Source: an uncultured Angelakisella sp.
Lineage (GTDB): Bacteria > Bacillota > Clostridia > Oscillospirales > Ruminococcaceae
NCBI GenBank assembly: GCA_904420255.1
Contig: CAJFUT010000021.1
Span: 1-12,135, forward strand
Reading direction: 5' to 3'
Length of the DNA: 12,135 nt
Shown here: piece after piece, positions 1 to 12,135 of the stretch
Layout: each line of letters begins with the position of its first letter
Numbering within the stretch: the stretch's first letter is position 1
Program-made: the position numbers and the translations under genes
The notes under the pieces: generated by a model
Told to the model about the DNA's origin: nothing
The model's input: the letters and a program-made list of their open reading frames with translations, nothing else
The model's database searches: none

Positions 1-61
1 AGCCACCCTGCACAGCCTGTCGCCTTAGAGGGGTCCAGGGCCCTCCCTGGTCAATCTTTGG

Positions 62-87
62 CCACTTTCTTTTGATCAAGAAAGTGG
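62..87. repeat. CACTTTCT-family hairpin, copy 1
   Basis: CCACTTTCTT, a 6-base TTGATC loop, then AAGAAAGTGG: a perfect 10-bp inverted repeat 26 bases long. Related copies lie at 223-248, 9943-9968 and 10035-10060. It is close to symmetrical, so either strand could form it. Confidence 0.8.
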
Positions 88-167
88 CGACACCGGCGTC
101 GGGCTTCTGCCTGACAATTTCTCAAACCACCGCATTACCCATGGCACAAGGTAAAACAAGCCCGGAC

Positions 168-184
168 TTCCGGTCCGACCGGAG
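168..184. repeat. CCGGT/ACCGG hairpin, copy 1
   Basis: Left arm TTCCGGT, loop CCG, right arm ACCGGAG: a 7-pair stem with a terminal T-G wobble. Copy 2 lies at 328-344. Copy 3, at 9978-9994, has CTCCGGT with loop GCG, so the wobble becomes C-G. All copies follow CCCGGA and precede GTA. At 168 and 9978 the CACTTTCT hairpin follows at nearly the same distance. Confidence 0.65.
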
Positions 185-222
185 TAATACCAGAAAGAGG
201 CCCCGTGCAGCGGATTCTTTGG

Positions 223-248
223 CCACTTTCTTTTGATCAAGAAAGTGG
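223..248. repeat. CACTTTCT-family hairpin, copy 2
   Basis: Identical in its 26 bases to copy 1, and exactly 161 bases away as part of the direct repeat. Confidence 0.8.
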
Positions 249-327
249 CGACCTCGGCCCAGGCCGATGGCTGACAAACTCTCAAACCTCTCCATTACCC
301 ATGGCACAAGGTAAAACAAGCCCGGAC

Positions 328-344
328 TTCCGGTCCGACCGGAG
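328..344. repeat. CCGGT/ACCGG hairpin, copy 2
   Basis: Identical to the copy at 168-184 and part of the second unit of the direct repeat. It lies just before the long hairpin at 351-387. Confidence 0.65.
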
Positions 345-350
345 TATCAA

Positions 351-387
351 TTAGAAAGAGGCCCTGTACCCTAGGGCCTCTTTCTAA
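351..387 (-). terminator. Long hairpin, likely terminator of the minus-strand PHP gene
   Basis: TTAGAAAGAGGCCC (351-364) pairs perfectly with GGGCCTCTTTCTAA (374-387), a 14-bp stem with a 9-base loop. Read on the minus strand, the descending arm is U-rich (CUCUUUCUAAUUG), though there is no long U run after the stem. It is 67 bases past the PHP stop codon, and the lower stem is A/T-rich. It may work in both directions. Confidence 0.55.
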
Positions 388-422
388 ACAAAGATAAAAG
401 AAAATCCAACGTCGCAGCAGGG

Positions 423-439
423 TGCGGGCGAAGCCCGCA
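423..439 (-). terminator. Short GC hairpin after the PHP gene
   Basis: TGCGGGC, loop GAA, GCCCGCA: a 7-bp stem 15 bases past the PHP stop. On the minus strand a T-rich stretch (GGATTTTCTTTTATC) follows about 20 bases later. That is too far for a textbook terminator, so it may only assist the longer hairpin downstream. Confidence 0.3.
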
Positions 440-453
440 AAGAGTGGATGCGG

Positions 454-1188
454 TTACAGGGCCACGCCCAGGAGGGCGAGGAGCCGCCGGCAGGCGTCCT
501 CCCCCGGGGGCCAGGAGAAGGCCGGGTCCCCCGGGTCCTTGATGTCCCCCAGGCGGTGGGCGTCGGAATTGCGGAGGATGGGGTAGCGGCCCAGGATGTC
601 CCGGCGGGCCCCGCCGGCGAAGAATTTCTCCGGCCGGCGCACCTCCGCCAGGGGGAACCCCGCCTCGTGGGGGAAGAAGCCCAGGTTGGAAAAGACGCTG
701 TTGGCGTCCCGGTCGATGTGGGCGGGGAAGGCGACGCCGCCGTATTTTTGGGCGAAGGCGGGCATTTGGTCCACCGAAAGGCCGGTGGCGCTGATGAGCA
801 GCTTCTCCACCTGGCCCAGGGGCTCCTCCCGGGGGCCCATGAGGAGCTGGTTGCCGAAGATGGCCGGGTCGTTTTTCACCGGCAGCAGGGAGGCGTAGAC
901 CTCCTCCCCCGCCGCCAGGGCGGAATCCAGGTCGGGGAAGAGGCAGACCACATGGACCTCCTCCGAGGTGGTCACCTCCATGCCGGGGATGACGGTGAGG
1001 GGGAGGCGGAATTCCCTGGCCGCCGCCATCACCGCCCCGGCGTTGCGGCAGGAATTGTGGTCGGTGACGGCGATGACCGAAAGCCCCATGAGGGCCGCCA
1101 TGTTGGCCACGTTGGGAGGGGTCATGTCGTCGTCCCCGCAGGGGGAAAGGCAGGTGTGGATGTGCAGGTCGTATGCCGGCCCCGCCAC
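454..1188 (-). CDS. PHP-domain metal-dependent phosphoesterase
   Basis: This 244-residue protein belongs to the PHP (polymerase and histidinol phosphatase) family, likely a cytosolic metal-dependent phosphoesterase. Visible metal-ligand motifs are DLHIHT (H9, H11), TDHN (D43, H44), GMEV (E71), EVHVV (H79), AHIDRD (H157, D159) and NSDAH (D209, H211), which cover the whole PHP fold. The start is a GTG at 1188, because AAAGGAGG lies about 8 bases upstream and DLHIH must sit near the N-terminus. It is last in the minus-strand set, 55 bases after the YcxB-like gene, and that A/T-rich gap could hold its own promoter. PHP genes often accompany DRTGG and hydrogenase-like genes in Clostridia, as I recall. 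The substrate is unknown; nucleotide or phosphorylated small molecules are possible. Family call is secure, role is not. Confidence 0.88.
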   Translation of the reverse strand: MAGPAYDLHIHTCLSPCGDDDMTPPNVANMAALMGLSVIAVTDHNSCRNAGAVMAAAREFRLPLTVIPGMEVTTSEEVHVVCLFPDLDSALAAGEEVYASLLPVKNDPAIFGNQLLMGPREEPLGQVEKLLISATGLSVDQMPAFAQKYGGVAFPAHIDRDANSVFSNLGFFPHEAGFPLAEVRRPEKFFAGGARRDILGRYPILRNSDAHRLGDIKDPGDPAFSWPPGEDACRRLLALLGVAL

Positions 1189-1243
1189 AGGCGTCCCCTC
1201 CTTTCGTGATATACAAATTGTAATATATGATGGATATTTTACG

Positions 1244-1756
1244 TTATGGCTTGAACCGCGGCCCCAGCGCCTGGGCCAGGAATTCCCGGAGCTGCCAGGG
1301 TTCCCCCAGGGTCATCCCCGCCTTCCCCACCAGCAGGGCCTGCTCCCGGGAGGTGTAAAGGTAAAAATATTCCGGCCCCTCCAGGGCCCGGATAAGCTGA
1401 TGGTAGTAATAAAACCCCTGGGTCTGGCGGCTGGCGTATTCCACCCGGTCGGGATAGAAGCGCAGACGGTAGACCGGCACGGCCTCGGGGGTGCTGGCCC
1501 GCACCGCCACCCGGCCGGTGAGGAAGCGCCCCTCCAGCAGCAGGAGGGCTCCCCCCGCCGCCACCAGCAGCCAGGCGCTGGCCCCCAGCTCCGAGAAGGG
1601 CAGCAGCAGGGAGCCCACCCCCACCAGCAGGAGCAGGCCCCCCAGCAGGGGCAGCAGCGCCAGCATCACCAGGTGGGTGCGGCGGTAGTGGATTTTGGCA
1701 AAATCCCGGAGGGCTTTTTGGTCATAGGGGGTGACAGCCTCAAAAAAGTGCTCCAT
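1244..1756 (-). CDS. YcxB-like membrane protein
   Basis: This 170-residue protein has two hydrophobic stretches, about residues 29-52 and 57-75, joined by a short SELGAS turn, so it probably forms a membrane hairpin. A soluble C-terminal part follows. That part has the look of the YcxB family: aromatic-rich YYYHQ, the PEYFYLYTSREQALLV strand pair, then LREFL near the end. The function of YcxB proteins is not known. The ATG at 1756 has TGGAGG about 6 bases upstream. It is separated by 52 A/T-rich bases from the DRTGG gene before it and 55 bases from the PHP gene after it, so it may be transcribed apart from the hydrogenase-sensing genes. Nothing in the sequence ties it to hydrogen metabolism. 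Confidence 0.75.
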   Translation of the reverse strand: MEHFFEAVTPYDQKALRDFAKIHYRRTHLVMLALLPLLGGLLLLVGVGSLLLPFSELGASAWLLVAAGGALLLLEGRFLTGRVAVRASTPEAVPVYRLRFYPDRVEYASRQTQGFYYYHQLIRALEGPEYFYLYTSREQALLVGKAGMTLGEPWQLREFLAQALGPRFKP

Positions 1757-1808
1757 CAGGGCCTCCAGAAAATACGGTTTGTATAAATCGAAATAAAATA
1801 TACCAGAA

Positions 1809-2141
1809 TCAGATTCCCAGGGCCTTGGCCAAAGCGGAGGCCGCCTGGAAAACCGGCAGCCTGGTGGCCAGGACGGCCACCCCCTCCCGGCCGGCCCGGT
1901 CCCGGGCGTCGGCGTCCAGGGGCATCCCCTCGGCCAGGACGATGCAGGCGCAGTCGGCCATCACCGCCACGGCGATGGAGTTGAGGTTGCCCATCACCGT
2001 CACCCAGGCGCAGTCCGCCGGGGCCCGGCCCATGACGATGGAAAGGAGGTCGCAGCAATAGACGCCGCCGGCGACCTCCCGCTCCCCACCGCCGCAGAGG
2101 ATCTCAAAGCCGCAGGCCGCGGTCAGCTCCCGTACCGTCAT
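1809..2141 (-). CDS. DRTGG-domain protein (second copy)
   Basis: This 110-residue protein consists of one DRTGG-type domain. Recognisable parts are GGVYCCDLLSIVMGRA (26-40), AWVTVMGNLNSIAVAVMAD (45-63), CIVLAEG (66-72) and the terminal GVAVLATRLPVFQAA. DRTGG domains occur next to CBS domains, in phosphotransacetylase N-termini and beside HprK-like proteins; a ligand-binding or regulatory role is assumed. The ATG at 2141 overlaps the TGA of the HydS-like gene (ATGA), so the two are translationally coupled, and GGAGG lies upstream within that gene. A paralogue sits at the head of the same operon (3914-4267). The literal DRTGG tetrapeptide is absent, which is common for short versions. Confidence 0.8.
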   Translation of the reverse strand: MTVRELTAACGFEILCGGGEREVAGGVYCCDLLSIVMGRAPADCAWVTVMGNLNSIAVAVMADCACIVLAEGMPLDADARDRAGREGVAVLATRLPVFQAASALAKALGI

Positions 2142-3463
2142 TGGGGGGAAACCTCCTCTCCCTCTTCAGCCCGGGGCTTTTCCCCGAAGCTCTCGGCCAT
2201 CATGGTTTCCATCACCGCCTCCAGCTTCTCCTTGAGGACATAGATGCAGCTGTCCTCGGCGGCGTAGCCCCGGACGATGTCCTCGGCCAGGGCCCGGCAG
2301 GAGGGAGCCCCGCAGGAGCCGCAGTCCAGCCCCGGCAGCCGCTCCTCGATCTCGGACATTTTGGAGAGCATCTCCATGGCCCGCAGGGGGTCGGGGTCCA
2401 GCTGCATCACCGGGGCGAAGGGCACCTCCCGGTCCCATTTGGCCTCGGGGGGGATGGCGTCCTCCAGGTGGTTGCAGGAAACGGGGCGGTAGCGCCCCAG
2501 GCGTTTCAGGCGGGCGGCGGCCACATAGGGGTTCTCGATGGTGAGGACCCCGCCCACGCAGCCGGAGGCGCAGGCGTCCAGCTCCACGAAATCCAGCCCC
2601 CGGAGCTTTTCGTCCTCCATGTCCTCCAGCACCCGGATGACGTTCTCGATGCCGTCGGCGGCCAGGTACCGCTCGTGGAGGGTGGCGGCGGCCTCGCCGC
2701 CGCTGCGGCCCCAGCCGATGCCGGTCTTGCCGGCGGCCGCCAGCTCCTGGAGGGTGGCGGGGAGGGCCTTCATGGTGCCCAGCAGGTGGGGGTACACCTC
2801 GCTGACGCTCACCACCAGGTCGATATCGCTGCGGGCGGTGCCCAGGGGGTGCTTGGCCGCCGTCACCTTGGCGGGGCAGGGGGAGATGAAGACGCAGCCG
2901 ATCTCCGCCGGGGAAAGGCCGGTGCGCCGGGCCGCCTGGCGCTTGGCGATCCGGGCGGCCAGCTCCACCGGGGCCTGGAGGGGCAGGACGTTGCCCAGCA
3001 GCTGGGGGAACCGCACCCGGATGAGCCGCAGCACCGCCGGGCAGGCGGAGGAGATCACCGGCCGCTCCAGGAGGCCCTGGCTCAGCAGCAGCCGGGTGGC
3101 GTCGCTCACCAGCTCGGCGGCGGCCGCCACCTCAAAGACCTGGTCGAAGCCCATGGCGATGAGGCCCCCCAGCACCAGGTCCACGTCGTCCAGGTTGTTG
3201 AACTGGCCGTAGAGGGCGGGGGCGGGGAGGGCGATCTTCCAGCGGAACCGCTCCATGCCCGCCAGGCGGTCGGTGACGGCCCGCTTGGCGTGGTGGGGGC
3301 AGACCCGGATGCACTCCCCGCAGTCGATGCAGCGGTCCCTCAGGATGTGGGCCTTGCCCCCCCGGACCCGGATGGCCTCGGTGGGGCACCGCTTGACGCA
3401 GGTGATGCACCCCTTGCAGGCGTCGGGATTCAGCGTTACCGAGTGAAAATATTGTTCTTCCAT
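2138..3463 (-). CDS. HydS-like sensory [FeFe]-hydrogenase relative
   Basis: This 441-residue protein starts with two [4Fe-4S] ferredoxin motifs (C16, C19, C22, C26 and C45, C48, C51, C55). A hydrogenase H-domain follows, then a C-terminal Fe-S motif CGSCGAPSC (C381, C384, C389, with C406). The H-cluster motifs are altered: L1 reads SSACPAV (A140-C141), L2 reads SPCPAK without the usual glutamate, and L3 reads DACASGCVGG (C298, C302). The four likely cluster-ligand cysteines remain (C141, C196, C298, C302), but alanine replaces the proton-relay cysteine of catalytic enzymes. I recall the same change in the group D sensory enzyme TamHydS of Thermoanaerobacter mathranii. No PAS domain is present. 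AAGGAAC precedes the ATG by about 8 bases. It likely senses H2 or redox state for the adjacent ATPase and DRTGG partners; a cluster-scaffold role is the alternative. Confidence 0.85.
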   Translation of the reverse strand: MEEQYFHSVTLNPDACKGCITCVKRCPTEAIRVRGGKAHILRDRCIDCGECIRVCPHHAKRAVTDRLAGMERFRWKIALPAPALYGQFNNLDDVDLVLGGLIAMGFDQVFEVAAAAELVSDATRLLLSQGLLERPVISSACPAVLRLIRVRFPQLLGNVLPLQAPVELAARIAKRQAARRTGLSPAEIGCVFISPCPAKVTAAKHPLGTARSDIDLVVSVSEVYPHLLGTMKALPATLQELAAAGKTGIGWGRSGGEAAATLHERYLAADGIENVIRVLEDMEDEKLRGLDFVELDACASGCVGGVLTIENPYVAAARLKRLGRYRPVSCNHLEDAIPPEAKWDREVPFAPVMQLDPDPLRAMEMLSKMSEIEERLPGLDCGSCGAPSCRALAEDIVRGYAAEDSCIYVLKEKLEAVMETMMAESFGEKPRAEEGEEVSPQ

Positions 3464-3491
3464 GGCGTTGTTCCTTCCCGGGGAAGCGGGC

Positions 3492-3917
3492 CTATCCCCT
3501 CAGATAGACGGTCATGGTGACGGTGGTGCCCTCCCCCACGGTGCTTTCCACCTTCATCTCGTCGGAATATTTCTTCATGTTGGGCAGCCCCATCCCGGCC
3601 CCGAAGCCCAGGCTGCGGACGTTGTCCGGGGCGGTGCTCCACCCCTCCTCCATGGCCTTGGCGATGTCCGGGATGCCGGGGCCGTGGTCGGAAAGGACCA
3701 TGTGGACCTTTTCGCCGTCGATGTCCACGTCGATGGTGCCGCCGCCCCCGTGGATCACCAGGTTGATCTCCCCCTCGTACATGGCGATGGAAACCTTCCG
3801 CACCACCTCGGGGGGGAAGCCCAGCTTCTTGAGGGTGCCTTTCACGGCGCCGGAGGCCTCCCCCGCCCGGGTGAAGTCGTCCCCCGGCACCTGGTAGGTG
3901 TAATGAAGCCCGCTCAT
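3492..3917 (-). CDS. RsbW/RsbT-like ATP-binding protein (GHKL fold)
   Basis: This 141-residue single-domain GHKL ATPase resembles anti-sigma factors and serine/threonine switch kinases. The N-box is SIAMYEGEINLVIH (43-56), the G1 box DHGPGIPD (77-84), and the ATP lid and G2 region GFGAGMGLPNMKKYSD (104-119), ending with GEGTTV. There is no dimerisation/phosphoacceptor domain, so it is not a histidine kinase. Its start overlaps the upstream DRTGG stop (ATGA), and the HydS-like gene follows after 28 bases. Proteins of this kind phosphorylate STAS-domain antagonists or bind sigma factors, but no sigma factor or STAS gene is in the window. Whether it keeps kinase activity cannot be told. Its position between a DRTGG protein and an H-cluster protein makes it the likely output or transducer of that sensor. 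Confidence 0.83.
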   Translation of the reverse strand: MSGLHYTYQVPGDDFTRAGEASGAVKGTLKKLGFPPEVVRKVSIAMYEGEINLVIHGGGGTIDVDIDGEKVHMVLSDHGPGIPDIAKAMEEGWSTAPDNVRSLGFGAGMGLPNMKKYSDEMKVESTVGEGTTVTMTVYLRG

Positions 3918-4267
3918 CGGATGGCCAGCCCCCCGTTCAGGCCCGCCTGGTACAGCAGGCCGCAGGAGGTGAACATCCGGTGGGGGGAGGACATGACGGC
4001 AATGCCCTTCTCCCGGGCCAGGTCCAGGATCTCCGGCCCCGGCTCCTTGTCCCGCACAAAGATGACGCAGACCATGTCCATCATCTCGGCGGTGCGGATC
4101 ACCTGCTGGTTCACCAGGCCGGTGAGCAGCAGGGCCTGGTCCTTGACATAGGCCAGCACGTCGCTCATCAGGTCGCTGCCGCAGGCGGTGTTCACCGTCT
4201 TGTCCAGGGATTCTTCCCCTGTCAGCAGCCGGGCGTCCAAAATGGTTTGTACTTCCCGAAGGGTCAT
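3914..4267 (-). CDS. DRTGG-domain protein (first copy)
   Basis: This 117-residue protein is a single DRTGG-type domain. Visible are ACGSDLMSDVLAYVKDQALL (28-47), LVNQQVIRTAEMMDMVCVIF (51-70), the helix PEILDLAREKGIAV and the terminal FTSCGLLYQAG. I chose the ATG at 4267 because GGGAGGAGAGG lies about 9 bases upstream and the family starts here; an in-frame extension to 4327 would add 20 residues unlike the family. It is the first gene after the strong minus-strand promoter and overlaps the next gene by four bases. It has the same fold and key positions as the protein at 1809-2141. A regulatory ligand-binding role is presumed from the family, and the ligand is unknown. Confidence 0.82.
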   Translation of the reverse strand: MTLREVQTILDARLLTGEESLDKTVNTACGSDLMSDVLAYVKDQALLLTGLVNQQVIRTAEMMDMVCVIFVRDKEPGPEILDLAREKGIAVMSSPHRMFTSCGLLYQAGLNGGLAIR

Positions 4268-4291
4268 CTGCGATCCTCTCCTCCCAATTCC

Positions 4292-4320
4292 AAAAAGCCC
4301 GCCGGTCCCCCGGCGCTTTT
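4292..4320 (-). terminator. Terminator-like hairpin in the sensor operon leader (possible attenuator)
   Basis: On the minus strand AAAAGC-GCCGG (4320-4310), loop GGGA, CCGGC (4305-4301), a GG bulge, then GC and TTTTT. It makes an 11-bp stem ending in a U run. It begins only about 6 bases after the predicted transcription start and ends 24 bases before the first start codon. It could end transcripts early or protect the 5' end. Confidence 0.55.
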
Positions 4321-4332
4321 GATACAATTCAC

Positions 4333-4361
4333 ATTATACCATTGGAAAAAGGGAATGACAA
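4333..4361 (-). promoter_or_regulatory. Sigma-A promoter of the minus-strand sensor operon
   Basis: On the minus strand, TTGTCA (4361-4356), a 17-base spacer, then TATAAT (4338-4333). The -10 box is perfect and the -35 box has five of six consensus bases. The predicted start is near 4326, leaving a leader of about 59 bases before the DRTGG start. Confidence 0.8.
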
Positions 4362-4413
4362 TTGCAGGAAATGTAGAATCGACGAAAAATTATCAAGCTT
4401 TCCACCGGAGTCC

Positions 4414-4443
4414 ATGACAAACCCAAACCGGCTATGTTATAAT
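4414..4443 (+). promoter_or_regulatory. Sigma-A promoter of the hydrogenase operon, extended -10
   Basis: ATGACA (4414-4419), an 18-base spacer, then TATAAT (4438-4443), with TG one base upstream of the -10 box (TGTTATAAT). Five of six -35 bases match. The predicted start is near 4450, giving a leader of about 110 bases before hydC. Confidence 0.8.
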
Positions 4444-4471
4444 AAAAAAGCAACCGATTTGCCGTTTCGCC

Positions 4472-4536
4472 CCTCCCGGCCCCTGCGGGGCGGAGGAGGG
4501 ACGGATTGTTCTGCCCCGGGGCGGCGCGCCCGCCCC
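4472..4536 (+). promoter_or_regulatory. Two GC-rich leader hairpins before hydC
   Basis: Hairpin 1 at 4472-4496 is CCTCC-cg-GCCCC, loop TGC, GGGGC-GGAGG. Hairpin 2 at 4518-4536 is GGGGCGG, loop CGCGC, CCGCCCC. Hairpin 2 ends three bases before the AAGGAGG ribosome site (4540-4546), so its folding may influence translation. Neither has a strong U run, so they are not clear terminators. Confidence 0.45.
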
Positions 4537-4559
4537 ATGAAGGAGGTAACGAAGAAACC

Positions 4560-5057
4560 ATGTCCAACAGAATCTGCAAAATCCCTTTCAAGGGGACGGA
4601 AAACCAGGAGCGGGAGCTCAGGAGCCTCATTGAGAAGCTCCGGGACCAGGAGGGGGCCCTGATGCCCATCCTCCAGGGGGCCCAGGGCATCTACGGCTAC
4701 CTGCCCATCGAGGTGATGAAGATCATCGCCGCCGAGATGGGGGTCTCCCTGGAAACGGTGTACGGGGTGGCCACCTTCTATTCCCAGTTCACCCTGAACC
4801 CCAAGGGCCAGTATAAAATCTCGGTCTGCCTGGGCACCGCCTGCTACGTCAAGGGCTCCGGGGAGGTCTACAGCCGCCTCCAGGAGCGGCTGGGCATCGG
4901 CAGCGGGGAATGCACCCCCGACGGGAAGTTCTCCCTGGAGGCCTGCCGGTGCATCGGCGCTTGCGGCCTGGCCCCGGTGATGACCGTCAACGACGAGGTC
5001 TACGGCCGGCTGGTGGCCGACGACGTGGACGAGATCCTGGCCAAGTACCAGGACTGA
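4560..5057 (+). CDS. hydC: HydC, NuoE-like 2Fe-2S subunit of bifurcating [FeFe]-hydrogenase
   Basis: This 165-residue subunit has a helical N-terminal part and a thioredoxin-like [2Fe-2S] domain with C90, C95, C131 and C135 (C-x4-C and C-x3-C, within SVCLGTAC and CRCIGAC). Length and motifs match HydC/NuoE, the 24-kDa type subunit that carries the single 2Fe-2S cluster beside the flavin subunit. I start it at the ATG of MSNRICKI; AAGGAGG is about 13 bases upstream, a rather wide gap. A TTG further up would add residues that belong to the GC hairpin and look non-coding. It is first in the hydrogenase operon, and the next gene starts 4 bases after its stop. Confidence 0.93.
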   Translation: MSNRICKIPFKGTENQERELRSLIEKLRDQEGALMPILQGAQGIYGYLPIEVMKIIAAEMGVSLETVYGVATFYSQFTLNPKGQYKISVCLGTACYVKGSGEVYSRLQERLGIGSGECTPDGKFSLEACRCIGACGLAPVMTVNDEVYGRLVADDVDEILAKYQD

Positions 5058-5061
5058 GGCC

Positions 5062-5643
5062 ATGATGCAGGAACTGTCCCTCAACGTCCTGGACGTGGCG
5101 GAAAATTCCGTCCGGGCGGGGGCCACCCTCATTGAGATCACGGTGGAGGAGGACACCGCCGCCGACCTCCTGGCCATCACCATCGCCGACAACGGCAAAG
5201 GGATGACCGAGGAGCAGGTCCGCCAGGTCACCGACCCCTTCTTCACCACCCGGACCACCCGGCGGGTGGGGCTGGGGGTGCCCTTTTTCAAGATGGCGGC
5301 GGAGCTTTCCGGCGGCGGGCTCCAGATCCGGAGCCAGCCGGGCAAAGGCACCGTGGTCACCGCCAGATTCGGCCTTGGGAGCATCGACCGGATGCCCCTG
5401 GGGGATATGGAGGGGACCATCCGCACCCTGGTCCAGGGGAGCCCGGGGATCGACTTTGTCTACACCCGCCGGCTGGACGGGCGGGAGCTGCGGATGGATA
5501 CCCGGGAATTCCGCCGGGTGCTGGGGGAGGGGATCCCCCTGGACGACCCCCAGGTGCTGGGGTTTTTGGAAGAATATCTCCGTGAAAATACCCGGGAGCT
5601 GCTGCATCCCGGGACCGAAACTGCAGAGGAGGAACGCGCTTAA
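5062..5643 (+). CDS. Lone HATPase (GHKL) protein inside the hydrogenase operon
   Basis: This 193-residue protein has a GHKL ATP-binding domain: N-box LDVAENSVRAGA (10-21), G1 box DNGKGM (43-48), a shortened lid with DPFFTT, G2 region GLGVPFFKMAAELSGG (70-85) and GKGT (94-97). After about residue 105 comes a C-terminal tail without a recognised fold (SIDRMPLGDMEGTIRTL onward). There is no HisKA domain, receiver or membrane segment. It sits between hydC and the ferredoxin-like gene, with gaps of 4 bases and 1 base, so it is made together with the enzyme. As I recall, similar genes accompany clostridial HydABC operons, but their role is not established. It differs from the RsbW-like protein of the divergent operon. 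It may be a regulator or an ATP-dependent assembly factor. Confidence 0.85.
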   Translation: MMQELSLNVLDVAENSVRAGATLIEITVEEDTAADLLAITIADNGKGMTEEQVRQVTDPFFTTRTTRRVGLGVPFFKMAAELSGGGLQIRSQPGKGTVVTARFGLGSIDRMPLGDMEGTIRTLVQGSPGIDFVYTRRLDGRELRMDTREFRRVLGEGIPLDDPQVLGFLEEYLRENTRELLHPGTETAEEERA

Positions 5644-5644
5644 C

Positions 5645-6022
5645 ATGAAAAGTCTTGCGGAGCTTCAGGCCCTTCGGGAGGAAATGAAGAACAAAATCGG
5701 CATCCGCCACGACAGCGATACGGGCATCCGCATCGTGGTGGGGATGGCCACCTGCGGCATCGCCGCCGGGGCCCGGCCGGTGCTGGCCGCCTTCACCGAC
5801 GAGGTGGCGAAGCGGGGCCTCACCCATGTTTCGGTGGGGCAGACCGGCTGCATCGGCATCTGCCAGTACGAGCCGGTGGTGGAGGTCTACGAGCCTGGCA
5901 AGGAGAAGGTGACCTATGTGAAGGTCACCCCCGAGATGGTGCCCACCATCGTCAGCCAGCACATCGTCAACGGCAGCCCTGTCACCGAGTACACCATCGG
6001 CGCCAGCGGCGCCAAGGCATAA
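5645..6022 (+). CDS. Small thioredoxin-like 2Fe-2S ferredoxin-type protein
   Basis: This 125-residue protein has a helical N-terminus (MKSLAELQALREEMKN) and a thioredoxin-like ferredoxin fold with GMATCGIAAGARP (C37) and GQTGCIGICQ (C69, C73). The last C-x3-C pair is standard, but only one cysteine is found in the first loop, where most 2Fe-2S proteins of this fold have two. I recall CGIAAGARP as common in this operon family, so it may be a real subtype. GAGGAGGAA lies about 11 bases before the ATG; an in-frame extension upstream overlaps the ATPase gene and is a different reading of it. It probably shuttles electrons or helps assemble HydABC. Its fold also matches the N-terminus of HydB. Confidence 0.85.
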   Translation: MKSLAELQALREEMKNKIGIRHDSDTGIRIVVGMATCGIAAGARPVLAAFTDEVAKRGLTHVSVGQTGCIGICQYEPVVEVYEPGKEKVTYVKVTPEMVPTIVSQHIVNGSPVTEYTIGASGAKA

Positions 6023-6043
6023 AGGAAAGGGAGGAAAAGACGG

Positions 6044-7831
6044 ATGTATCGTTCCCATGTACTGGTGTGCGGCGGCACCGGCTGCACCTCCTCCGGCAGC
6101 GGCCGGATCGTCACCGCCTTTGAGCGGGAGCTGGAGGCCGCCGGGCTGGACAAGGAGATCAAGGTCATCAAGACCGGCTGCTTCGGCCTCTGCGCCCTGG
6201 GGCCCATTGTGGTGGTCTACCCCGAGGGGGCCTTCTATTCCCAGGTGAAGGCCGAGGACGTGCCGGAGATCGTGGAGGAGCACCTCCTCAAGGGCCGCAT
6301 CGTGCGGCGCCTCCTTTATTCCGAAACGGTGGAGGAGGACACCGTCAAGAGCCTCAACGAAACCGATTTCTATAAGAAGCAGAAGCGGGTGGCCCTCAAG
6401 AACTGCGGCGTCATCGACCCGGAGAACATCAACGAATACATCGCCTACGACGGCTACATGGCCCTGGGCAAGGCCCTCACCGAAATGACCCCCGAGGAGG
6501 TCATCCAGTGCATCTCCGACTCGGGCCTCCGGGGCCGGGGGGGCGGCGGCTTCCCCACCGGGAAGAAGTGGTCCTTCGCGGCGGCCCAGCCCAAGGGCGT
6601 CAAATACGTCTGCTGCAACGCCGATGAGGGGGACCCCGGCGCCTTCATGGACCGCTCCATCCTGGAGGGGGACCCCCATGTGGTGCTGGAGGCCATGGCC
6701 ATCGCCGGCGACGCCATCGGCGCCCAGCAGGGCTACATCTACGTCCGGGCCGAGTACCCCATCGCCGTCAAGCGGCTCCAGGTGGCCATCGGCCAGGCCC
6801 GGGAGATGGGCCTGCTGGGGAAAAACATCCTGGGCACCGGCTTTGATTTCGACATCGACATCCGCCTGGGGGCCGGCGCCTTCGTCTGCGGCGAGGAAAC
6901 CGCCCTCATGACCTCCATCGAGGGCCGCCGGGGCGAGCCCCGCCCCCGTCCCCCCTTCCCGGCGGTGAAGGGCCTTTTCGGCAAGCCCACCATCCTCAAC
7001 AACGTGGAAACCTACGCCAACGTCCCCCAGATCATCCTCAACGGGCCGGAGTGGTTCGCCTCCATGGGCACCGAGAAATCCAAGGGCACCAAGGTCTTCG
7101 CCCTGGGGGGCAAGATCCACAACACCGGCCTGGTGGAGGTGCCCATGGGCACCACCCTCCGGGAGATCGTGGAGGAGATCGGCGGCGGCATCCCGAACGG
7201 GAAGAAATTCAAGGCCGCCCAGACCGGCGGCCCCTCCGGCGGCTGCATCCCGGCGGAGCACCTGGACGTGCCGGTGGATTACGACAACCTCATCGCCATC
7301 GGCTCCATGATGGGCTCCGGCGGCCTCATCGTCATGGATGAGGACACCTGCATGGTGGACATCGCCAAGTTCTTCCTGGAATTCACCGTGGACGAGAGCT
7401 GCGGCAAATGCACCCCCTGCCGCATCGGCACCAAGCGGCTCTACGAGCTGCTGGACAAGATCACCAAGGGCAAGGCTGACATGGAGGACCTGGACAAGCT
7501 GGAAACCCTCTGCTACCACATCAAGGAGAACGCCCTCTGCGGCCTGGGGCAGACCGCCCCCAACCCGGTCCTCTCCACCCTCAAGTATTTCCGGGACGAA
7601 TACGTCGCCCACATTGTGGAGAAGCGGTGCCCCGCCGGGGTCTGCAAGGAGCTCCTCACCATCCAGATCCTCCCCGAGAAGTGCAGGGGCTGCACCCTCT
7701 GCGCCAAGAACTGCCCCACCGGCGCCATCACCGGCAAGGTGAAGGAGCCCCACGTCATCGACACCGAGAAGTGCGTCAAGTGCGGGGTCTGCATCGAGAA
7801 GTGCCGCTTCGGCGCCATTGTGAAGCGGTAA
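6044..7831 (+). CDS. hydB: HydB, NuoF-like flavoprotein subunit of bifurcating [FeFe]-hydrogenase
   Basis: This 595-residue subunit is the NAD(H)- and FMN-binding, likely bifurcating part of HydABC. In order: a thioredoxin-like 2Fe-2S domain (C9, C14, C46, C50); the NuoF core with RGRGGGGFPTGKKW (163-176) and ADEGDPGAF (193-201); an SLBB region around 350-430; the NuoF 4Fe-4S site ESCGKCTPC (C453, C456, C459 with C499); and two C-terminal [4Fe-4S] motifs (C547, C550, C553, C557 and C577, C580, C583, C587). A CPAGVC pair (C529, C534) precedes the last domain. The length is close to known HydB proteins. GGGAGGAAA lies upstream of the ATG. hydA follows after 16 bases. No motif appears damaged. 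Confidence 0.95.
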   Translation: MYRSHVLVCGGTGCTSSGSGRIVTAFERELEAAGLDKEIKVIKTGCFGLCALGPIVVVYPEGAFYSQVKAEDVPEIVEEHLLKGRIVRRLLYSETVEEDTVKSLNETDFYKKQKRVALKNCGVIDPENINEYIAYDGYMALGKALTEMTPEEVIQCISDSGLRGRGGGGFPTGKKWSFAAAQPKGVKYVCCNADEGDPGAFMDRSILEGDPHVVLEAMAIAGDAIGAQQGYIYVRAEYPIAVKRLQVAIGQAREMGLLGKNILGTGFDFDIDIRLGAGAFVCGEETALMTSIEGRRGEPRPRPPFPAVKGLFGKPTILNNVETYANVPQIILNGPEWFASMGTEKSKGTKVFALGGKIHNTGLVEVPMGTTLREIVEEIGGGIPNGKKFKAAQTGGPSGGCIPAEHLDVPVDYDNLIAIGSMMGSGGLIVMDEDTCMVDIAKFFLEFTVDESCGKCTPCRIGTKRLYELLDKITKGKADMEDLDKLETLCYHIKENALCGLGQTAPNPVLSTLKYFRDEYVAHIVEKRCPAGVCKELLTIQILPEKCRGCTLCAKNCPTGAITGKVKEPHVIDTEKCVKCGVCIEKCRFGAIVKR

Positions 7832-7847
7832 GGGAGGGAAACTGGAA

Positions 7848-9599
7848 ATGAAAATGGTAAATCTCAAAATCAACGGCCTCCCGGTGACGGTGCCCGAGGG
7901 CACCACCATCCTGGAGGCGGCCCGGAAGCTGGCCATCGATATCCCCACCCTCTGCTACCTGAAGGACATCAACGAGATCGGCGCCTGCCGCATCTGCGTG
8001 GTGGAGGTCAAGGGGATGCGCAACCTGGTGGCCTCCTGCGTCTACCCGGTGGCGGAGGGGATGGAGGTCCTCACCAACTCCAAGCGGGTCTTCGCCTCCC
8101 GGAAAATCGACCTGGAGCTGATCCTCTCCACCCACAAGAAAAACTGCCTCTCCTGCGTCAGGAGCGGCAACTGCGAGCTCCAGAAGCTCTGCAAGGACTT
8201 CCGGGTCTACGACGAGGACGTCTACGCCGGGGAGAACCCCCAGTACGAATTTGACGACAGCGCCAAGCATATGTTCCGGGACAACAACAAGTGCGTCCTC
8301 TGCCGCCGGTGCGTCGCCGCCTGCCAGAAGTGGCAGGCCGTGGGGGTCATCGGCCCCAACGACCGGGGCTTCAATACCCACATCGGCTGCGCCTTCGAGC
8401 AGAACCTGGGGGACGTTTCCTGCGTTTCCTGCGGCCAGTGCATCGTGGTCTGCCCCACCGGCGCCATCGCCGAGAAGGACAACACCAAGGACGTCTGGCG
8501 GGCCATCAACGACCCCACCAAATATGTGGTGGTCCAGACCGCCCCTTCCATCCGGGTCACCCTGGGGGAGGCCTTTGATATGCCCATCGGCACCAACGTC
8601 AAGGGCAAGATGGTGGCGGCCCTCAAGCGGCTGGGCTTCGACGGGGTCTTTGACACCGACCTTGCCGCCGACATGACCATCGTGGAGGAGGCCCACGAGC
8701 TGGTGGAGCGGATCCGGAAGGGGGGCGCCCTCCCCATGATCACCTCCTGCTCCCCCGGCTGGGTCAACTACTGCGAGCACTTCTACCCTGAGTTCGTCCC
8801 CAACCTTTCCACCTGCAAATCCCCCCAGCAGATGTTCGGCGCCCTCACCAAGACCTGGTACGCCAGGAAGATGGGCCTGGACCCCAAGGACATCTTCGTG
8901 GTGGGCATCATGCCCTGCACCGCCAAGAAGTTCGAGGTGGCCCGGGAGGATGAGGCGGCCGCCGGCGTCCCAGACGTGGACGTGGCCCTCACCACCCGGG
9001 AGCTGGCCCGGATGATCGACCGGGCGGGGATCAACTTCAAGGAGCTGCCCGACGAGGAATTCGACGCCCCCATGGGGGTTTCCACCGGCGCCGGGGCCAT
9101 CTTCGGCGCCACCGGCGGCGTTATGGAGGCGGCCCTGCGCACCGCCGCCTGCTGGCTCACCGGCTCGGACGCCGCCCCGGTGGAATTCACCGAGGTCCGT
9201 GGCATGGACGGGGTGAAGGAGGCCAGCTACCAGCTGGGGGACCTGACCCTCAACGTGGCGGTGGCCTCGGGCCTGGCCAACGCCAGGAAGCTGCTGGAGA
9301 GCGTCAAGAGCGGCGAAAAGACCTACCACTTCATGGAGATCATGGGCTGCCCCGGCGGCTGCGTCAACGGCGGCGGGCAGCCGGTGCAGCCGGCCCGGGT
9401 CCGCAACTGGGTGGACCTCCGGGGGCTGCGGGCCGCCGCCCTCTATGAGGAGGATAAGAGCCTGCCCCTGCGCAAATCCCACGAGAACCCGGTGCTCCAG
9501 GAGATTTACAAGTCCTTCCTGGAAACCCCCGGCAGCCATGTGGCCCACCAGGTGCTCCACACCTCCTACCGCAAGCGCGGCCGCTTCACCAGCCTTTAA
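7848..9599 (+). CDS. hydA: HydA, catalytic [FeFe]-hydrogenase subunit
   Basis: This 583-residue cytosolic catalytic subunit reversibly makes H2, with electrons from NADH and reduced ferredoxin via HydBC. In order: a 2Fe-2S domain (C36, C47, C50, C64); a His-ligated 4Fe-4S site (H96, C100, C103, C109); two [4Fe-4S] motifs (C149, C152, C155, C159 and C192, C195, C198, C202); and the H-domain. L1 is TSCSPGW (C301, S302), L2 is MPCTAKKFE (C357, K360), L3 is EIMGCPGGCVNGGGQP (C501, C505). The small-subunit-like tail ends near SYRKRG. The layout is the M3 modular type of trimeric bifurcating enzymes, without the extra C-terminal Fe-S domain of the Thermotoga subunit. L1 has Ser where the well-studied enzymes have a second Cys. 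AGGGAGGG precedes the ATG at 7848; an ATG at 7854 is possible. No U-run terminator follows. Confidence 0.96.
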   Translation: MKMVNLKINGLPVTVPEGTTILEAARKLAIDIPTLCYLKDINEIGACRICVVEVKGMRNLVASCVYPVAEGMEVLTNSKRVFASRKIDLELILSTHKKNCLSCVRSGNCELQKLCKDFRVYDEDVYAGENPQYEFDDSAKHMFRDNNKCVLCRRCVAACQKWQAVGVIGPNDRGFNTHIGCAFEQNLGDVSCVSCGQCIVVCPTGAIAEKDNTKDVWRAINDPTKYVVVQTAPSIRVTLGEAFDMPIGTNVKGKMVAALKRLGFDGVFDTDLAADMTIVEEAHELVERIRKGGALPMITSCSPGWVNYCEHFYPEFVPNLSTCKSPQQMFGALTKTWYARKMGLDPKDIFVVGIMPCTAKKFEVAREDEAAAGVPDVDVALTTRELARMIDRAGINFKELPDEEFDAPMGVSTGAGAIFGATGGVMEAALRTAACWLTGSDAAPVEFTEVRGMDGVKEASYQLGDLTLNVAVASGLANARKLLESVKSGEKTYHFMEIMGCPGGCVNGGGQPVQPARVRNWVDLRGLRAAALYEEDKSLPLRKSHENPVLQEIYKSFLETPGSHVAHQVLHTSYRKRGRFTSL

Positions 9600-9603
9600 G
9601 TCC

Positions 9604-9675
9604 GGCGGGGCAGCCCCCGCTGGCATTGACGTTAGCTACGCTGTGAGAAACGAAAGATTGTGCGCCGCGCAGCTT
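9604..9675. repeat. Direct repeat bracketing the gap, left copy
   Basis: Starts with the GCGGGG hairpin (GGCGGGGCAGCCCCCGCTGG), then CATTGACGTTAGC, a diverged middle and GTGCGCCGCGCAGCTT. The right copy lies at 10062-10134 with the same order of blocks. It starts five bases after the hydA stop. Confidence 0.6.
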
Positions 9676-9942
9676 GGGATTCAGAAAGCGGTTTCCCACA
9701 CCCTAACCAGGGGGTAGCGGAAGCCCAGATTCCGCCGCGATCAGCGGGCGGGCTGGGGCGGGGTGCCCCCGCTGGCTCGCAATTTGCTCCACTCCGTTGC
9801 GCAAATTGATTTCCCCCCCGGAGGGCAGGGGGGCACATGGGGGGACTGGTCCCCCCGTGAGGGCCGACCTGCCCCGAAGGGGCGGGCCTGACCCAGAGGG
9901 CCCTCGGCCCTTGGGCCCGGGGGGCTCCCCGGCCGCTCTTTG

Positions 9943-9968
9943 TCACTTTCTCTCGGCAGAGAAAGTGA
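9943..9968. repeat. CACTTTCT-family hairpin, variant copy
   Basis: TCACTTTCTCT, loop CGGC, AGAGAAAGTGA: an 11-bp perfect stem. Against the other copies both bases of two pairs have changed together (C-G to T-A at the base, T-A to C-G near the loop), so the stem is kept although the sequence differs. Confidence 0.75.
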
Positions 9969-9977
9969 TGCCCGGAC

Positions 9978-9994
9978 CTCCGGTGCGACCGGAG
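9978..9994. repeat. CCGGT/ACCGG hairpin, copy 3
   Basis: CTCCGGT, loop GCG, ACCGGAG: seven Watson-Crick pairs. It follows CCCGGA and is followed by GTAAT, as at 161-189 on the left flank. Confidence 0.65.
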
Positions 9995-10034
9995 TAATCT
10001 ATAAAAAGTAAACCTTGCGGAGCCCCTTCTTTGG

Positions 10035-10060
10035 CCACTTTCTTTTGATCAAGAAAGTGG
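10035..10060. repeat. CACTTTCT-family hairpin, copy 3
   Basis: Identical in 26 bases to the copies at 62-87 and 223-248, about 9.8 kb away, with the same TCTTTGG lead-in and GCG after it. Confidence 0.8.
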
Positions 10061-10061
10061 C

Positions 10062-10134
10062 GGCGGGGTGGCCCCCGCTGGCAATCACGTTAGTCACGGT
10101 GAAAGAAGCGAAAATGAGTGCGCCGCTCAACTTA
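10062..10134. repeat. Direct repeat bracketing the gap, right copy
   Basis: GGCGGGGTGGCCCCCGCTGG, then CAATCACGTTAG, a diverged middle and GTGCGCCGCTCAACTT. It corresponds block by block to 9604-9675, offset by about 458 bases. Confidence 0.6.
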
Positions 10135-10147
10135 GTCTGATAAAAAA

Positions 10148-10202
10148 TGCGCCGTTTGAATCCTAAGTGATATGCTCAGGGAGCGGGGCACAAACCGGCG
10201 CA
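10148..10202 (+). promoter_or_regulatory. Long hairpin in the region before def
   Basis: TGCGCCGTTT (10148-10157) pairs with AAACCGGCGCA (10192-10202) with one bulged C, closing a 34-base loop. In the loop CCTAAG and CTCAGG can pair with one mismatch. It ends 28 bases before the AAGGAGG of def. It may be a structured leader or the edge of the repeat island; no known riboswitch pattern is evident. Confidence 0.3.
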
Positions 10203-10248
10203 ACGTAGGCGCTTCTCTCACGGACATGAAAAGGAGGAACTGATAAAG

Positions 10249-10734
10249 ATGGCGATTCGCAACATGAGAATCGAGGGGGACGACATCCTCCGCAAAAAGA
10301 GCCGGGAGGTGGAGAAATTCGATGCCCGCCTCTGGGAGCTGCTGGACGACATGGCCGACACCCTGAAGGAGCAGAACGGGGTGGGCCTCGCCGCCGTCCA
10401 GGTGGGGGTGCTGCGCCGGGTCTTCATTGTGGACGTGGGGGAGGGGATCACCGAATTCATCAACCCCCGCACCCTGGCCACCGGCGGCAGCCAGACGGTG
10501 CTGGAGGGCTGCCTCTCCTTCCCGGGCCAGTGGGGGATGATCACCCGGCCCAACTATGTGCGGATCCGGGCCCAGGACCGCCACGGGAAATGGTTCGAGG
10601 CGGAGGGGGAGGGGCTGATGGCCCAGGCCATGCTCCACGAAAGCGGCCACCTGGACGGGGAGGTCTTCAAGGAGGACCCCAGCTTCCGGCCCCTCAGCGA
10701 GGAGGAGCTGGAGGAACTCAATTCCGGGGAATGA
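10249..10734 (+). CDS. def: Peptide deformylase
   Basis: This 161-residue enzyme removes the N-formyl group from new proteins in the cytosol. The three deformylase motifs are GVGLAAVQVG (44-53), EGCLSFPG (86-93, metal ligand C88) and the metal site HESGH (H130, E131, H134) within AMLHESGHLDG. The last motif is unusual: most family members have QHExDHL, and here Leu precedes the His and Gly replaces the Asp. The three metal ligands and the catalytic Glu are kept, so activity is likely. AAGGAGG (10231-10237) lies 11 bases before the ATG. fmt follows 18 bases after the stop, the usual def-fmt pairing. The usual upstream neighbour priA is not here; a repeat-rich gap takes its place. Confidence 0.95.
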   Translation: MAIRNMRIEGDDILRKKSREVEKFDARLWELLDDMADTLKEQNGVGLAAVQVGVLRRVFIVDVGEGITEFINPRTLATGGSQTVLEGCLSFPGQWGMITRPNYVRIRAQDRHGKWFEAEGEGLMAQAMLHESGHLDGEVFKEDPSFRPLSEEELEELNSGE

Positions 10735-10752
10735 GAAAAGGGGGAAAGGACT

Positions 10753-11682
10753 GTGGAAAAGCTCAGCGTCGTCTTTATGGGCACCCCGGATTTCGCCGTG
10801 CCCTGCCTGGCACGGGTCCTGGAGGACGGCTACCCCGTCCGGGGGGTGTTCACCCAGCCGGATAAGCCGGTGGGCCGCCGCCAGACCCTCACCCCGCCCC
10901 CGGTGAAAAAGCTGGCCCTGGAGAAGGAGATCCCCGTCTTCCAGCCGGCGAAGCTCCGGGACGGCGCCGCCCTGGAGATCCTCCGGGGCCTCGGACCGGA
11001 CCTGATCGTGGTGGTGGCCTACGGGCGGATCCTCCCCCGGGAGATTCTGGACTGCCCCCGGCTGGGCTGCGTCAACGTCCACGGCAGCCTCCTGCCCAAA
11101 TACCGGGGGGCGGCCCCCATCCAGTGGACGGTCATCAACGGCGACCCGGTGGGGGGCGTCACCACCATGTACATGGCGGAGGAGCTGGACGCCGGGGACA
11201 CCATCCTCTCCATGAGCCTGCCGGTGGGGGAGGAGGAAACCAGCGGGGAGCTCTATGAGCGGCTGGCCCCCCTGGGGGCGGAGTGCCTTTCCCGGACCCT
11301 GGCCCTCTTCCAGGAGGGGCGGGTCCCCCGCGCCCCCCAGGACCACGCCGCCGCCACCCTGGCCCCCATGCTGGACAAGGCCATGGGGGAGATGGACTTT
11401 TCCCTCCCCGCCCGGCGGCTCCACAACCTGGTCCGGGGGCTGAACCCCTGGCCCTCCGCCTGGACCGCCGCCGAAGGGAAGCGGCTGAAAATCCACCGCA
11501 GCCGGGTGCTGGAGGAAACCGGGGCCCCCGCCGCCCCGGGGACCGTCCTTCCCCGGGAGGGCCGCTTCACCGTGGCCTGCGGCTCCGGCCTCCTGGAACT
11601 TTTAGAGGTGCAATTGGAAGGCAAGGGCCGTACGTCCGGGGCGGATTTCCTCCGGGGCCATCTCCTGGAGCGGCTGGGATAA
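10753..11682 (+). CDS. fmt: Methionyl-tRNA formyltransferase
   Basis: This 309-residue enzyme formylates initiator Met-tRNA using 10-formyl-tetrahydrofolate. The N-terminal Rossmann domain has VVFMGTPDFAVP (6-17), the catalytic N108 and H110 in NVHGSLLPKYRGAAPIQ, and D146 in ELDAGD. The tRNA-binding C-terminal domain runs from about 208. The start is a GTG at 10753, with AAAGGA just upstream; MEKLSVVFMG fits the family. The length is normal. The last 25 residues (285-309, EVQLEGKGRTS onward) are also encoded in three tandem copies after the stop. In the gene the family's usual QP-x-GK reads QLEGK and its Met reads Thr, while the downstream copies have QPEGK. The enzyme looks complete. Confidence 0.96.
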   Translation: MEKLSVVFMGTPDFAVPCLARVLEDGYPVRGVFTQPDKPVGRRQTLTPPPVKKLALEKEIPVFQPAKLRDGAALEILRGLGPDLIVVVAYGRILPREILDCPRLGCVNVHGSLLPKYRGAAPIQWTVINGDPVGGVTTMYMAEELDAGDTILSMSLPVGEEETSGELYERLAPLGAECLSRTLALFQEGRVPRAPQDHAAATLAPMLDKAMGEMDFSLPARRLHNLVRGLNPWPSAWTAAEGKRLKIHRSRVLEETGAPAAPGTVLPREGRFTVACGSGLLELLEVQLEGKGRTSGADFLRGHLLERLG

Positions 11683-12095
11683 CACCCCCGGAAGGAAGGG
11701 ACTTCCAGGCCGCGAAAGATTTTCCTGTGCCCCGCTCTCCGGAGGTCCAACCGGAGGGCAAGGGCCGGATGGCCGGGGCGGATTTCCTCCGGGGACACCC
11801 CCTGGAGCGGCTGGGATAACATCCCCCGGAAGGAAGGGGCTTCCAGGCCACGAAAGATTTTTCTGTGTCCCGCCCTCCGGAGGTCCAACCGGAGGGCAAG
11901 GGCCGTACGTCCGGGGCGGATTTCCTCCGGGGTCACCCCCTGGAGCGGCTGGGATAACATCCCCCGCCGGAAGGGGGCTTCCAGGCCGCGAAAGATTTTC
12001 CTGTGCCCCGCTCTCCGGAGGTCCAACCAGAGGGCAAGGGCCGTACGTCCGGGGCGGATTTCCTCCGGGGACACCCCCTGGAGCGGCTGGGCTGA
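11605..12095 (+). repeat. Tandem repeat made from the fmt 3' end, about 3.6 units of 137-138 bp
   Basis: Unit starts are 11605 (inside fmt), 11742, 11880 and 12018, spacings of 137, 138 and 138. Each unit is a 78-base segment encoding the last 25 Fmt residues plus stop (TAA, TAA, TAA, TGA at 12093), then a 59-60 base spacer holding GGAAG/CTTCC and the palindrome CTCCGGAG. The last unit lacks the spacer. All four keep an undamaged reading frame; differences are point changes such as QL/QP, RTS/RMA and HLLE/HPLE. None of the extra copies has a start codon with a ribosome site, so they are not expected to be translated by themselves. Confidence 0.9.
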
Positions 12096-12107
12096 GGGGA
12101 GGGGCCG

Positions 12108-12129
12108 AGGGGCCTCTTCCGGGGCCCCT
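12108..12129 (+). terminator. Possible terminator after the fmt repeats
   Basis: AGGGGCC (12108-12114), loop TCTTCCGG, GGCCCCT (12123-12129): a 7-bp GC stem 13 bases past the last repeat. The window ends six bases later, so a U run cannot be judged. Confidence 0.3.
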
Positions 12130-12135
12130 GAAGCC

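Follow-up and report, generated by a model that had tools for sequence, protein, structure and literature searches.

What does a putatively sensory [FeFe]-hydrogenase act upon? Work on purified group D (M2e) HydS has so far proceeded without a known partner, and the available text of an April 2026 paper describes the finding of HydS interaction partners as critical future work (PMC13104023). The question is raised by the stretch of DNA analysed here (the window: 12,135 nucleotides of an uncultured Angelakisella sp., contig CAJFUT010000021.1, positions 1–12,135; its own genome, labelled G000, is 81% complete), in which a group D HydS-like gene lies with two DRTGG genes and a GHKL ATPase gene, divergent from a hydrogenase operon. 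Comparison across genomes reveals a full cassette of DRTGG1, GHKL1, HydS, DRTGG2 and a PHP metallo-phosphoesterase (D1-G1-S-D2-P), often with a second GHKL ATPase, GHKL2 (G2). Judged by gene content and order, HydS, the GHKL ATPase and the DRTGG proteins are a conserved unit. We lean towards reading the cassette as a cytoplasmic signalling unit for anaerobic redox metabolism, conserved as such, in which HydS acts on GHKL1.

A conserved gene set around group D HydS

The initial annotation of this DNA had proposed counting the joint occurrence of these families across genomes, and such counts bear the association out. In a class set of 293 genomes (at least 90% completeness requested, the window's own genome included), HydS, GHKL1 and DRTGG1 were each found in 142 genomes; 139 hold all three and 146 at least one, and each pair with HydS gives a Fisher p of 4e-76, kinship uncorrected. 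The cut-offs were at least 271 bits for HydS, with a clean gap to the next score of 138 bits, at least 93 bits for GHKL1 (next score 54) and at least 76 bits for DRTGG1, where the gap is less clean and an extra orthologue scores 62.7 in a genome already counted. HydS stands alone at contig ends in G020, G042 and G232, and G288 and G261 are likewise cut. Stop codons occur inside a few HydS matches, most of which could be alignments running beyond the gene end.

Gene order was read from 140 fetched stretches, 130 of them centred on HydS (142 HydS places besides the window's, 12 of which were left out). The order D1-G1-S-D2-P on one strand is found in 112 of these 130 loci, representing 43 of the 50 HydS-holding families; this count ignores unlabelled genes, and two of the ordered loci (L061, L067) have more than 4 kb between HydS and DRTGG2. 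PHP, present in 118/130 loci, is by this measure a core member of the cassette. The 18 incomplete loci comprise five without PHP, four without D1 and G1, four with HydS alone, three without D2 and PHP, and two without D1. Contig ends account for part of them; three others (L161, L164, L165) are true separations.

A second set of 299 genomes of the same phylum, overlapping little with the first, gives the same picture. GHKL1 is present in 117 of 118 new HydS genomes and lies directly upstream of HydS on the same strand in 116/124 loci, with a median gap of 35 bp. HydS copies without an adjoining GHKL1 were seen in G440 (L198), G309, G463, G486 and G547. In nine genomes GHKL1 occurs but no HydS match was obtained (G301, G324, G375, G399, G426, G433, G538, G562, G575); HydS is split over two frames in G375 and cut by a contig end in G538.

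The HydS-like protein of the window had been described as carrying altered H-cluster motifs, and its alignment agrees with this. It has two N-terminal [4Fe-4S] motifs, the H-domain and a C-terminal Cx2Cx4Cx16C motif at residue 381, the last being present in 129 of 131 aligned HydS sequences; all 16 cluster cysteines are intact in 127 of the 131, and two of the four exceptions are truncated ends. The position of CpI C299 is occupied by Ala in the window protein and in 111 of the 131 sequences, and by Cys in none; that of CpI M353 is Ser in the window and divided in the alignment as Thr 68, Ser 62 and Ala 1. Replacement of C299 and a change of M353 to Ser or Thr (CpI numbering) are among the group D traits given in the available text on TamHydS of Thermoanaerobacter mathranii (PMC8163306). 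By sequence, the window protein thus matches every group D feature examined. Group C (M2f) HydS proteins with PAS domains are likewise putatively sensory, whereas the window HydS gave no PAS match at E 0.001. Two further [FeFe]-hydrogenase proteins are encoded in G000. One (L003, G000:C4), with a ferredoxin-like part, H-domain, iron–sulphur-type motifs and a longer C-terminal part, resembles by eye a group C HydS; the other (L002, G000:C167) looks, also by eye, like a monomeric group B enzyme.

DRTGG1 passes the PF07085 cut-off of 25.2 with 37.7 bits (frame scanned as 3914–4327), and its predicted model, a modest one with a mean predicted local distance difference test score of 73.8, has the DRTGG structure 2ioj as its top Foldseek match. 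DRTGG2 falls just under the same cut-off, and the DRTGG fold was recovered by a fold search; its profile found no sequence match among solved structures at E 0.01. In PHP, residues H9, H11, D43, H44, E71, H79, H157, D209 and H211 are invariant among 59 aligned sequences and are presumably candidate metal ligands.

In the window, D1, GHKL1, HydS and D2 run together on the minus strand and PHP is split off by a YcxB-like gene. One or two YcxB genes occupy this position in the closest relatives (L005, L006, L007, L011), and one further cassette locus (L092) has such a gene after PHP; to judge by this distribution, the gene is probably a trait of the closest relatives and not part of the core. GHKL2 sits inside the divergent hyd operon of the window (nuoE-GHKL2-Fd-hydB-hydA, Fd being the ferredoxin-like gene); in cassettes distant from hydABC, such as L148, L157 and L179–L181, it comes after PHP.

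GHKL1 as the candidate hub

The three ATP-binding boxes of GHKL1 (E48–N52, D77–G81, G104–G110) are at least 90% conserved across 132 sequences. Its connections were read in 15 short stretches from 14 genomes (L185–L199), chosen for long GHKL1 frames or missing HydS, a sample that shows existence and no frequency. In one of them (L185, from G501) GHKL1 and HydS form a single open frame. Because of this natural fusion and the near-fixed gene order, GHKL1 is very probably a physical partner of HydS. The initial annotation had suggested that the operon itself may list the physical partners of HydS; this very probably holds for GHKL1, and PHP and GHKL2 were missing from the list. A long frame in G502 (L186) was considered as a second fusion and rejected, as the genes are separate there.

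Other fusions join GHKL1 to different partners. DRTGG1 and GHKL1 share one frame in three genomes (L187, L195, L199), and a pair of CBS domains, checked with Pfam, is fused to GHKL1 in five (L188, L189, L191, L196, L197). The one-contig genome G426 (L191) has the order D1-[CBS-GHKL1]-D2-PHP-G2. In G399 and G575 (L188/L190, L197), CBS-GHKL1 is followed by a ferredoxin-like gene and rnfC/rnfD; neither these two genomes nor G426 gave a HydS match at E 1e-60. In G327 (L196), D1-[CBS-GHKL1] immediately precedes HydS. HydS and CBS would thus replace or accompany each other on GHKL1, which makes GHKL1 probably a hub for which HydS is one of several inputs. Two of the stretches have features of their own: a Rex-like repressor gene (L199:954–1499) lies directly upstream of the DRTGG1-GHKL1 fusion in G554, with no relative at E 1e-10 among 141 class loci and ten close relatives, and in G301 (L193) a DRTGG2-like gene and GHKL2 come after GHKL1, in a stretch read without HydS, DRTGG1 or PHP.

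Parts of this arrangement have precedents. A 2012 survey, in its available text, places M2e sensory hydrogenases upstream of trimeric bifurcating hydrogenases, often with a His/Ser kinase between them, as at Cthe_0335 with Cthe_0340–0342 (PMC3561251); it covers few species, and the DRTGG, PHP and SpoIIAB-like genes do not figure in that text. TamHydS, which has group D features, is flanked in its host by a histidine-kinase-like ATPase and an AraC-type regulator (PMC8163306). The accessible part of that report names these two neighbours and not D1-G1-S-D2-PHP, the fusions, the CBS inputs or the rnf linkage, and the cassette here differs further in being divergent from hyd. In the literature searched, which excluded two key reviews (doi 10.1016/j.bbagen.2016.05.034, 10.1099/mic.0.032771-0), the DRTGG/GHKL/HydS/PHP set, its fusions and its rnf linkage are undescribed. 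The linkage of sensory M2e genes to bifurcating hydrogenases and a kinase was thus published in 2012, and the full partner set of a group D locus is now visible. The regulatory region of a clostridial pyrophosphatase (3l2b, 3l31) shares the DRTGG fold and the theme of CBS plus DRTGG; both domains regulate one chain there, whereas here CBS is on the GHKL protein and DRTGG is mostly separate. The cassette yields a ranking of candidate HydS partners, with GHKL1 first, followed by DRTGG1, DRTGG2, PHP and GHKL2, and the natural fusions are ready-made constructs.

Linkage to hyd and rnf genes and the possible output

An A6-type HydA match (E 1e-100) is present in 136 of the 142 HydS genomes. With the window counted, the HydS loci number 131: 75 have hydB/hydA without rnf, eight have hyd with rnf, five are of rnf type without hyd, 12 have pyr genes, and 31 have no hyd, rnf or pyr gene in the fetched stretch, 18 of these with more than 6 kb fetched downstream (part of the rnf and pyr naming was by eye, with a Pfam check on two). 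Eleven loci have the cassette lying within the hyd operon, with nuoE on one side and GHKL2-Fd-hydB-hydA on the other, and in G181, G231 and G276 D1-G1-D2-PHP-G2 stands immediately before rnfCDGEAB, with HydS elsewhere. As the cassette adjoins hydABC, rnf or neither, HydABC alone is unlikely to be its output, and the control of HydABC suggested in the initial annotation is unlikely to be all that it does.

The divergent layout of the window is the rarer arrangement: hydA is co-oriented with the cassette in 70/130 loci and divergent in 4/130, and eight have hydB only. Five of ten close relatives are divergent from hyd (L008, L009, L010, L012, L013), one is co-oriented (L014), and two have other genes in place of hyd (L005, L006; below); in L007 and L011 the upstream stretch is too short to judge. 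The layouts of L005, L006 and L014 imply that the back-to-back arrangement is unfixed even near the window.

Some neighbourhoods deserve separate mention. Seven loci (L153, L155, L160, L170, L171, L173, L177) have NuoE-GHKL2-Fd-HydB beside the cassette, no HydA, and then rnf, which we read as a HydBC-like module linked to Rnf. Beside the separated HydS genes of L164 (G231) and L165 (G181) lie NQR-like clusters, counted among the five rnf-type loci, and the Rnf/NQR-like cluster includes an NqrF-like reductase with Fer2, FAD and NAD domains. The pyrK-pyrD(-pyrE) genes follow the cassette in 12 loci, all of family f10 (L081, L089, L108, L114, L115, L117, L130, L132, L134, L135, L138, L140).

We propose that HydS may read H2 or the reduced-ferredoxin/redox state and, possibly with DRTGG1, act directly on GHKL1, setting its nucleotide or kinase state. 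GHKL1, an ATPase of RsbW/SpoIIAB type, would probably be a protein kinase, with DRTGG1 sitting on or beside it; DRTGG2, or both DRTGG proteins, might fill the place that STAS proteins have in known partner-switching systems and be bound or phosphorylated by GHKL1. PHP could serve as the opposing phosphatase or as the remover of a small ligand, and GHKL2 as a second, accessory ATPase. The output would tune ferredoxin:NAD machines (HydABC here, Rnf elsewhere), either post-translationally or via a distant regulator. The proposal rests directly on composition, order, co-occurrence, conserved catalytic residues, fusions and hyd/rnf linkage. From these we infer the sensing, the kinase/phosphatase chemistry, the role of DRTGG and the output: the coupling of HydS to GHKL1 from a single fusion and their almost constant adjacency, and what follows it from family roles. 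The statement, in the text available, that reaction with H2 alters the secondary structure of TamHydS (PMC13104023) counts in its favour. If true, H2/redox and energy charge would be linked to the enzymes that decide electron disposal in anaerobes, which would matter for H2 in the gut, for the yield of biofuels and for syntrophy. Tentatively, one may go further and see a new class of module, in which a GHKL hub that accepts alternative inputs (an H2/redox sensor derived from a hydrogenase, an adenylate sensor of the CBS type, or the two together) acts with DRTGG in place of STAS and PHP in place of PP2C, directly setting the balance of reduced ferredoxin and NADH at HydABC/Rnf.

Several points weigh against a signalling unit centred on HydS and GHKL1. 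Its sensing, kinase activity and output are read from sequence, the GHKL1-HydS fusion is known from the single genome G501, and the Ser that is invariant in each DRTGG protein (D1 S35, D2 S34) may have a structural role. HydS lies away from the remaining cassette in G181, G231 and G276; G170 and G193 are real exceptions that keep GHKL1 without HydS; and G440 has two HydS genes and no GHKL1 match (one of its loci, L198, reads HydS-DRTGG-Fd-NuoE-HydB). Of the 250 genomes that gave an A6-type HydA match at E 1e-100, 114 lack group D HydS, and the sequence upstream of the cassette in the close relatives L005 (more than 8 kb) and L006 (2.8 kb) carries genes other than hyd. Evolutionary distances over 71 loci (mirror-tree correlation) link HydS best with HydA (0.72) and with GHKL1 at only 0.55; as a test of the cassette the correlation did not discriminate and was set aside. 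H2 sensing in particular is called into question by 11 of 78 HydS genomes with none of HydE, HydF and HydG above cut-off.

These last genomes bear most on the rival that survives best, possible though not likely in our estimate, in which HydS senses redox state and not H2, its clusters taking electrons from the ferredoxin pool, while in many species the H-cluster site would be a relic or carry a [4Fe-4S] cluster and nothing more. The maturase sample comprised 80 genomes (78 with HydS, plus G170 and G193) and deliberately included exceptions, hence is non-random. HydF was above cut-off in 65; 14 of the other 15 hold HydS, of which G219, G185 and G093 have HydE above cut-off. The 11 maturase-less HydS genomes are G000, G055, G073, G113, G124, G142, G187, G189, G217, G276 and G281, among them well-assembled ones (G055 and G276, each a single contig, 98% and 99% complete; G142, 100%) as well as the window's own, less complete G000. 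In G124 and G189, moreover, no Fe_hyd_lg_C protein besides HydS was found. Against this rival, the four H-cluster cysteines are kept in 9/9 HydS examined from the maturase-less genomes (the window and eight fetched). An A6-type HydA match in 8 of the 11 makes it possible that maturases escaped recognition or fell into assembly gaps, and maturase-like proteins occur below threshold in G073 (HydE-like, 201.6 bits) and G276 (HydG-like, 226.3 bits). TamHydS, by the available account, does turn over H2 (PMC8163306), and the reported failure of the C-terminal cluster of T. mathranii HydS to respond to H2 fits either reading (PMC13104023). Either maturases went unrecognised, or assemblies have gaps, or HydS works without a full H-cluster; on present sequences, the maturase-less genomes argue against H2 sensing as a universal role of HydS.

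The cassette might instead be no sensor but serve HydABC/Rnf in their assembly or ATP-dependent activation, as chaperone or in cluster insertion, as would suit two ATPases and an iron–sulphur protein encoded within or next to their target operons. This we consider improbable, given the many A6-HydA genomes without HydS noted above and the CBS pairs on GHKL1, which point to nucleotide regulation.

A classical anti-sigma switch, with GHKL1 sequestering an unlinked sigma factor that DRTGG/HydS release, appears quite improbable too. GHKL1 belongs to the GHKL family, with the same ATP-binding boxes as the SpoIIAB/RsbW anti-sigma kinases, and SpoIIAB is its closest match, both when solved structures are compared (E 1.2e-9) and in NCBIfam (62.8 bits). 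The scores nevertheless lie far under the cut-offs of SpoIIAB (135) and RsbW (23.5 bits against 145). Neither sigma nor STAS nor response-regulator genes were found among the ten window proteins scanned, nor were any recognised among neighbour families present in at least five loci (10 of 40 scanned with Pfam, the rest by eye), as had been noted for the window itself; GHKL1 carries sensor fusions instead. A response-regulator-like gene, recognised by eye, lies about 4.5 kb from the separated HydS of L165 (14992–15918). That HydS serves as an accessory hydrogenase of low rate or shuttles electrons, with merely co-travelling neighbours, as the reversible H2 activity described in the available text on TamHydS (PMC8163306) and the mirror-tree preference for HydA might suggest, is very improbable in view of the GHKL1-HydS fusion and of the set in L191, whose other genes form their own unit without HydS.

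Layout of the window

The four cassette genes described in the initial annotation are real and correctly placed (Table 1), and the ATGA overlaps between them are exact. The bifurcating/NADH-dependent group A6 assignment of HydA follows from its passing the NF040763 cut-off.

Table 1. Features of the window, in order outward from the divergent promoters.
Feature	Position	Strand	Remarks
Cassette promoter, sigma-70-like	4333..4361	-	TTGTCA-17-TATAAT, 11/12
DRTGG1 (D1)	3914..4267	-	first cassette gene, start ATG 4267
GHKL1 (G1)	3492..3917	-	SpoIIAB/RsbW-like ATPase; HATPase_c_2 48.7 bits
HydS	2138..3463	-	group D (M2e) [FeFe]-hydrogenase-like putative sensor; Fe_hyd_lg_C, Fer4, C-terminal iron–sulphur motif
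DRTGG2 (D2)	1809..2141	-	PF07085 23.5 bits, below cut-off; DRTGG fold
YcxB-like gene	1244..1756	-	PF14317; between D2 and PHP
PHP metallo-phosphoesterase	454..1188	-	PF02811 30.9 bits, cut-off 26.4
hyd operon promoter, sigma-70-like	4414..4443	+	ATGACA-18-TATAAT, 11/12
NuoE/HydC subunit	4560..5057	+	PF01257 176 bits, scanned as 4506-5057
GHKL2 (G2)	5062..5643	+	second stand-alone GHKL ATPase; HATPase_c 62.1 bits
2Fe-2S ferredoxin-like	5645..6022	+	start set at ATG 5645; frame 5375-6022 weakly matches NF041612, 40.4 bits (cut-off 150)
HydB	6044..7831	+	open reading frame; named by position, by eye and by homologues in hyd operons
HydA	7848..9599	+	group A6 NADH-dependent [FeFe] hydrogenase; NF040763 911 bits, cut-off 765

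The back-to-back promoters proposed for the two operons are present as sigma-70-like sites. Both are kept in the close relative L012, where the cassette site is identical and the hyd site matches at 10/12; the best sites are 9–10/12 in L009, L010 and L013, and none passed between cassette and hyd in L008. A search of the divergent promoter region of the window for a Rex-type binding site gave an unconvincing best match of 10/14 positions. Near its left end the window carries a 160-bp tandem repeat (55–346), a 43-bp portion of which recurs at 10028–10070, and near the contig end a 138-bp tandem repeat (11548–12098, about 3.5 copies with 91% matches) begins in the 3' end of an fmt-like gene, named by eye.

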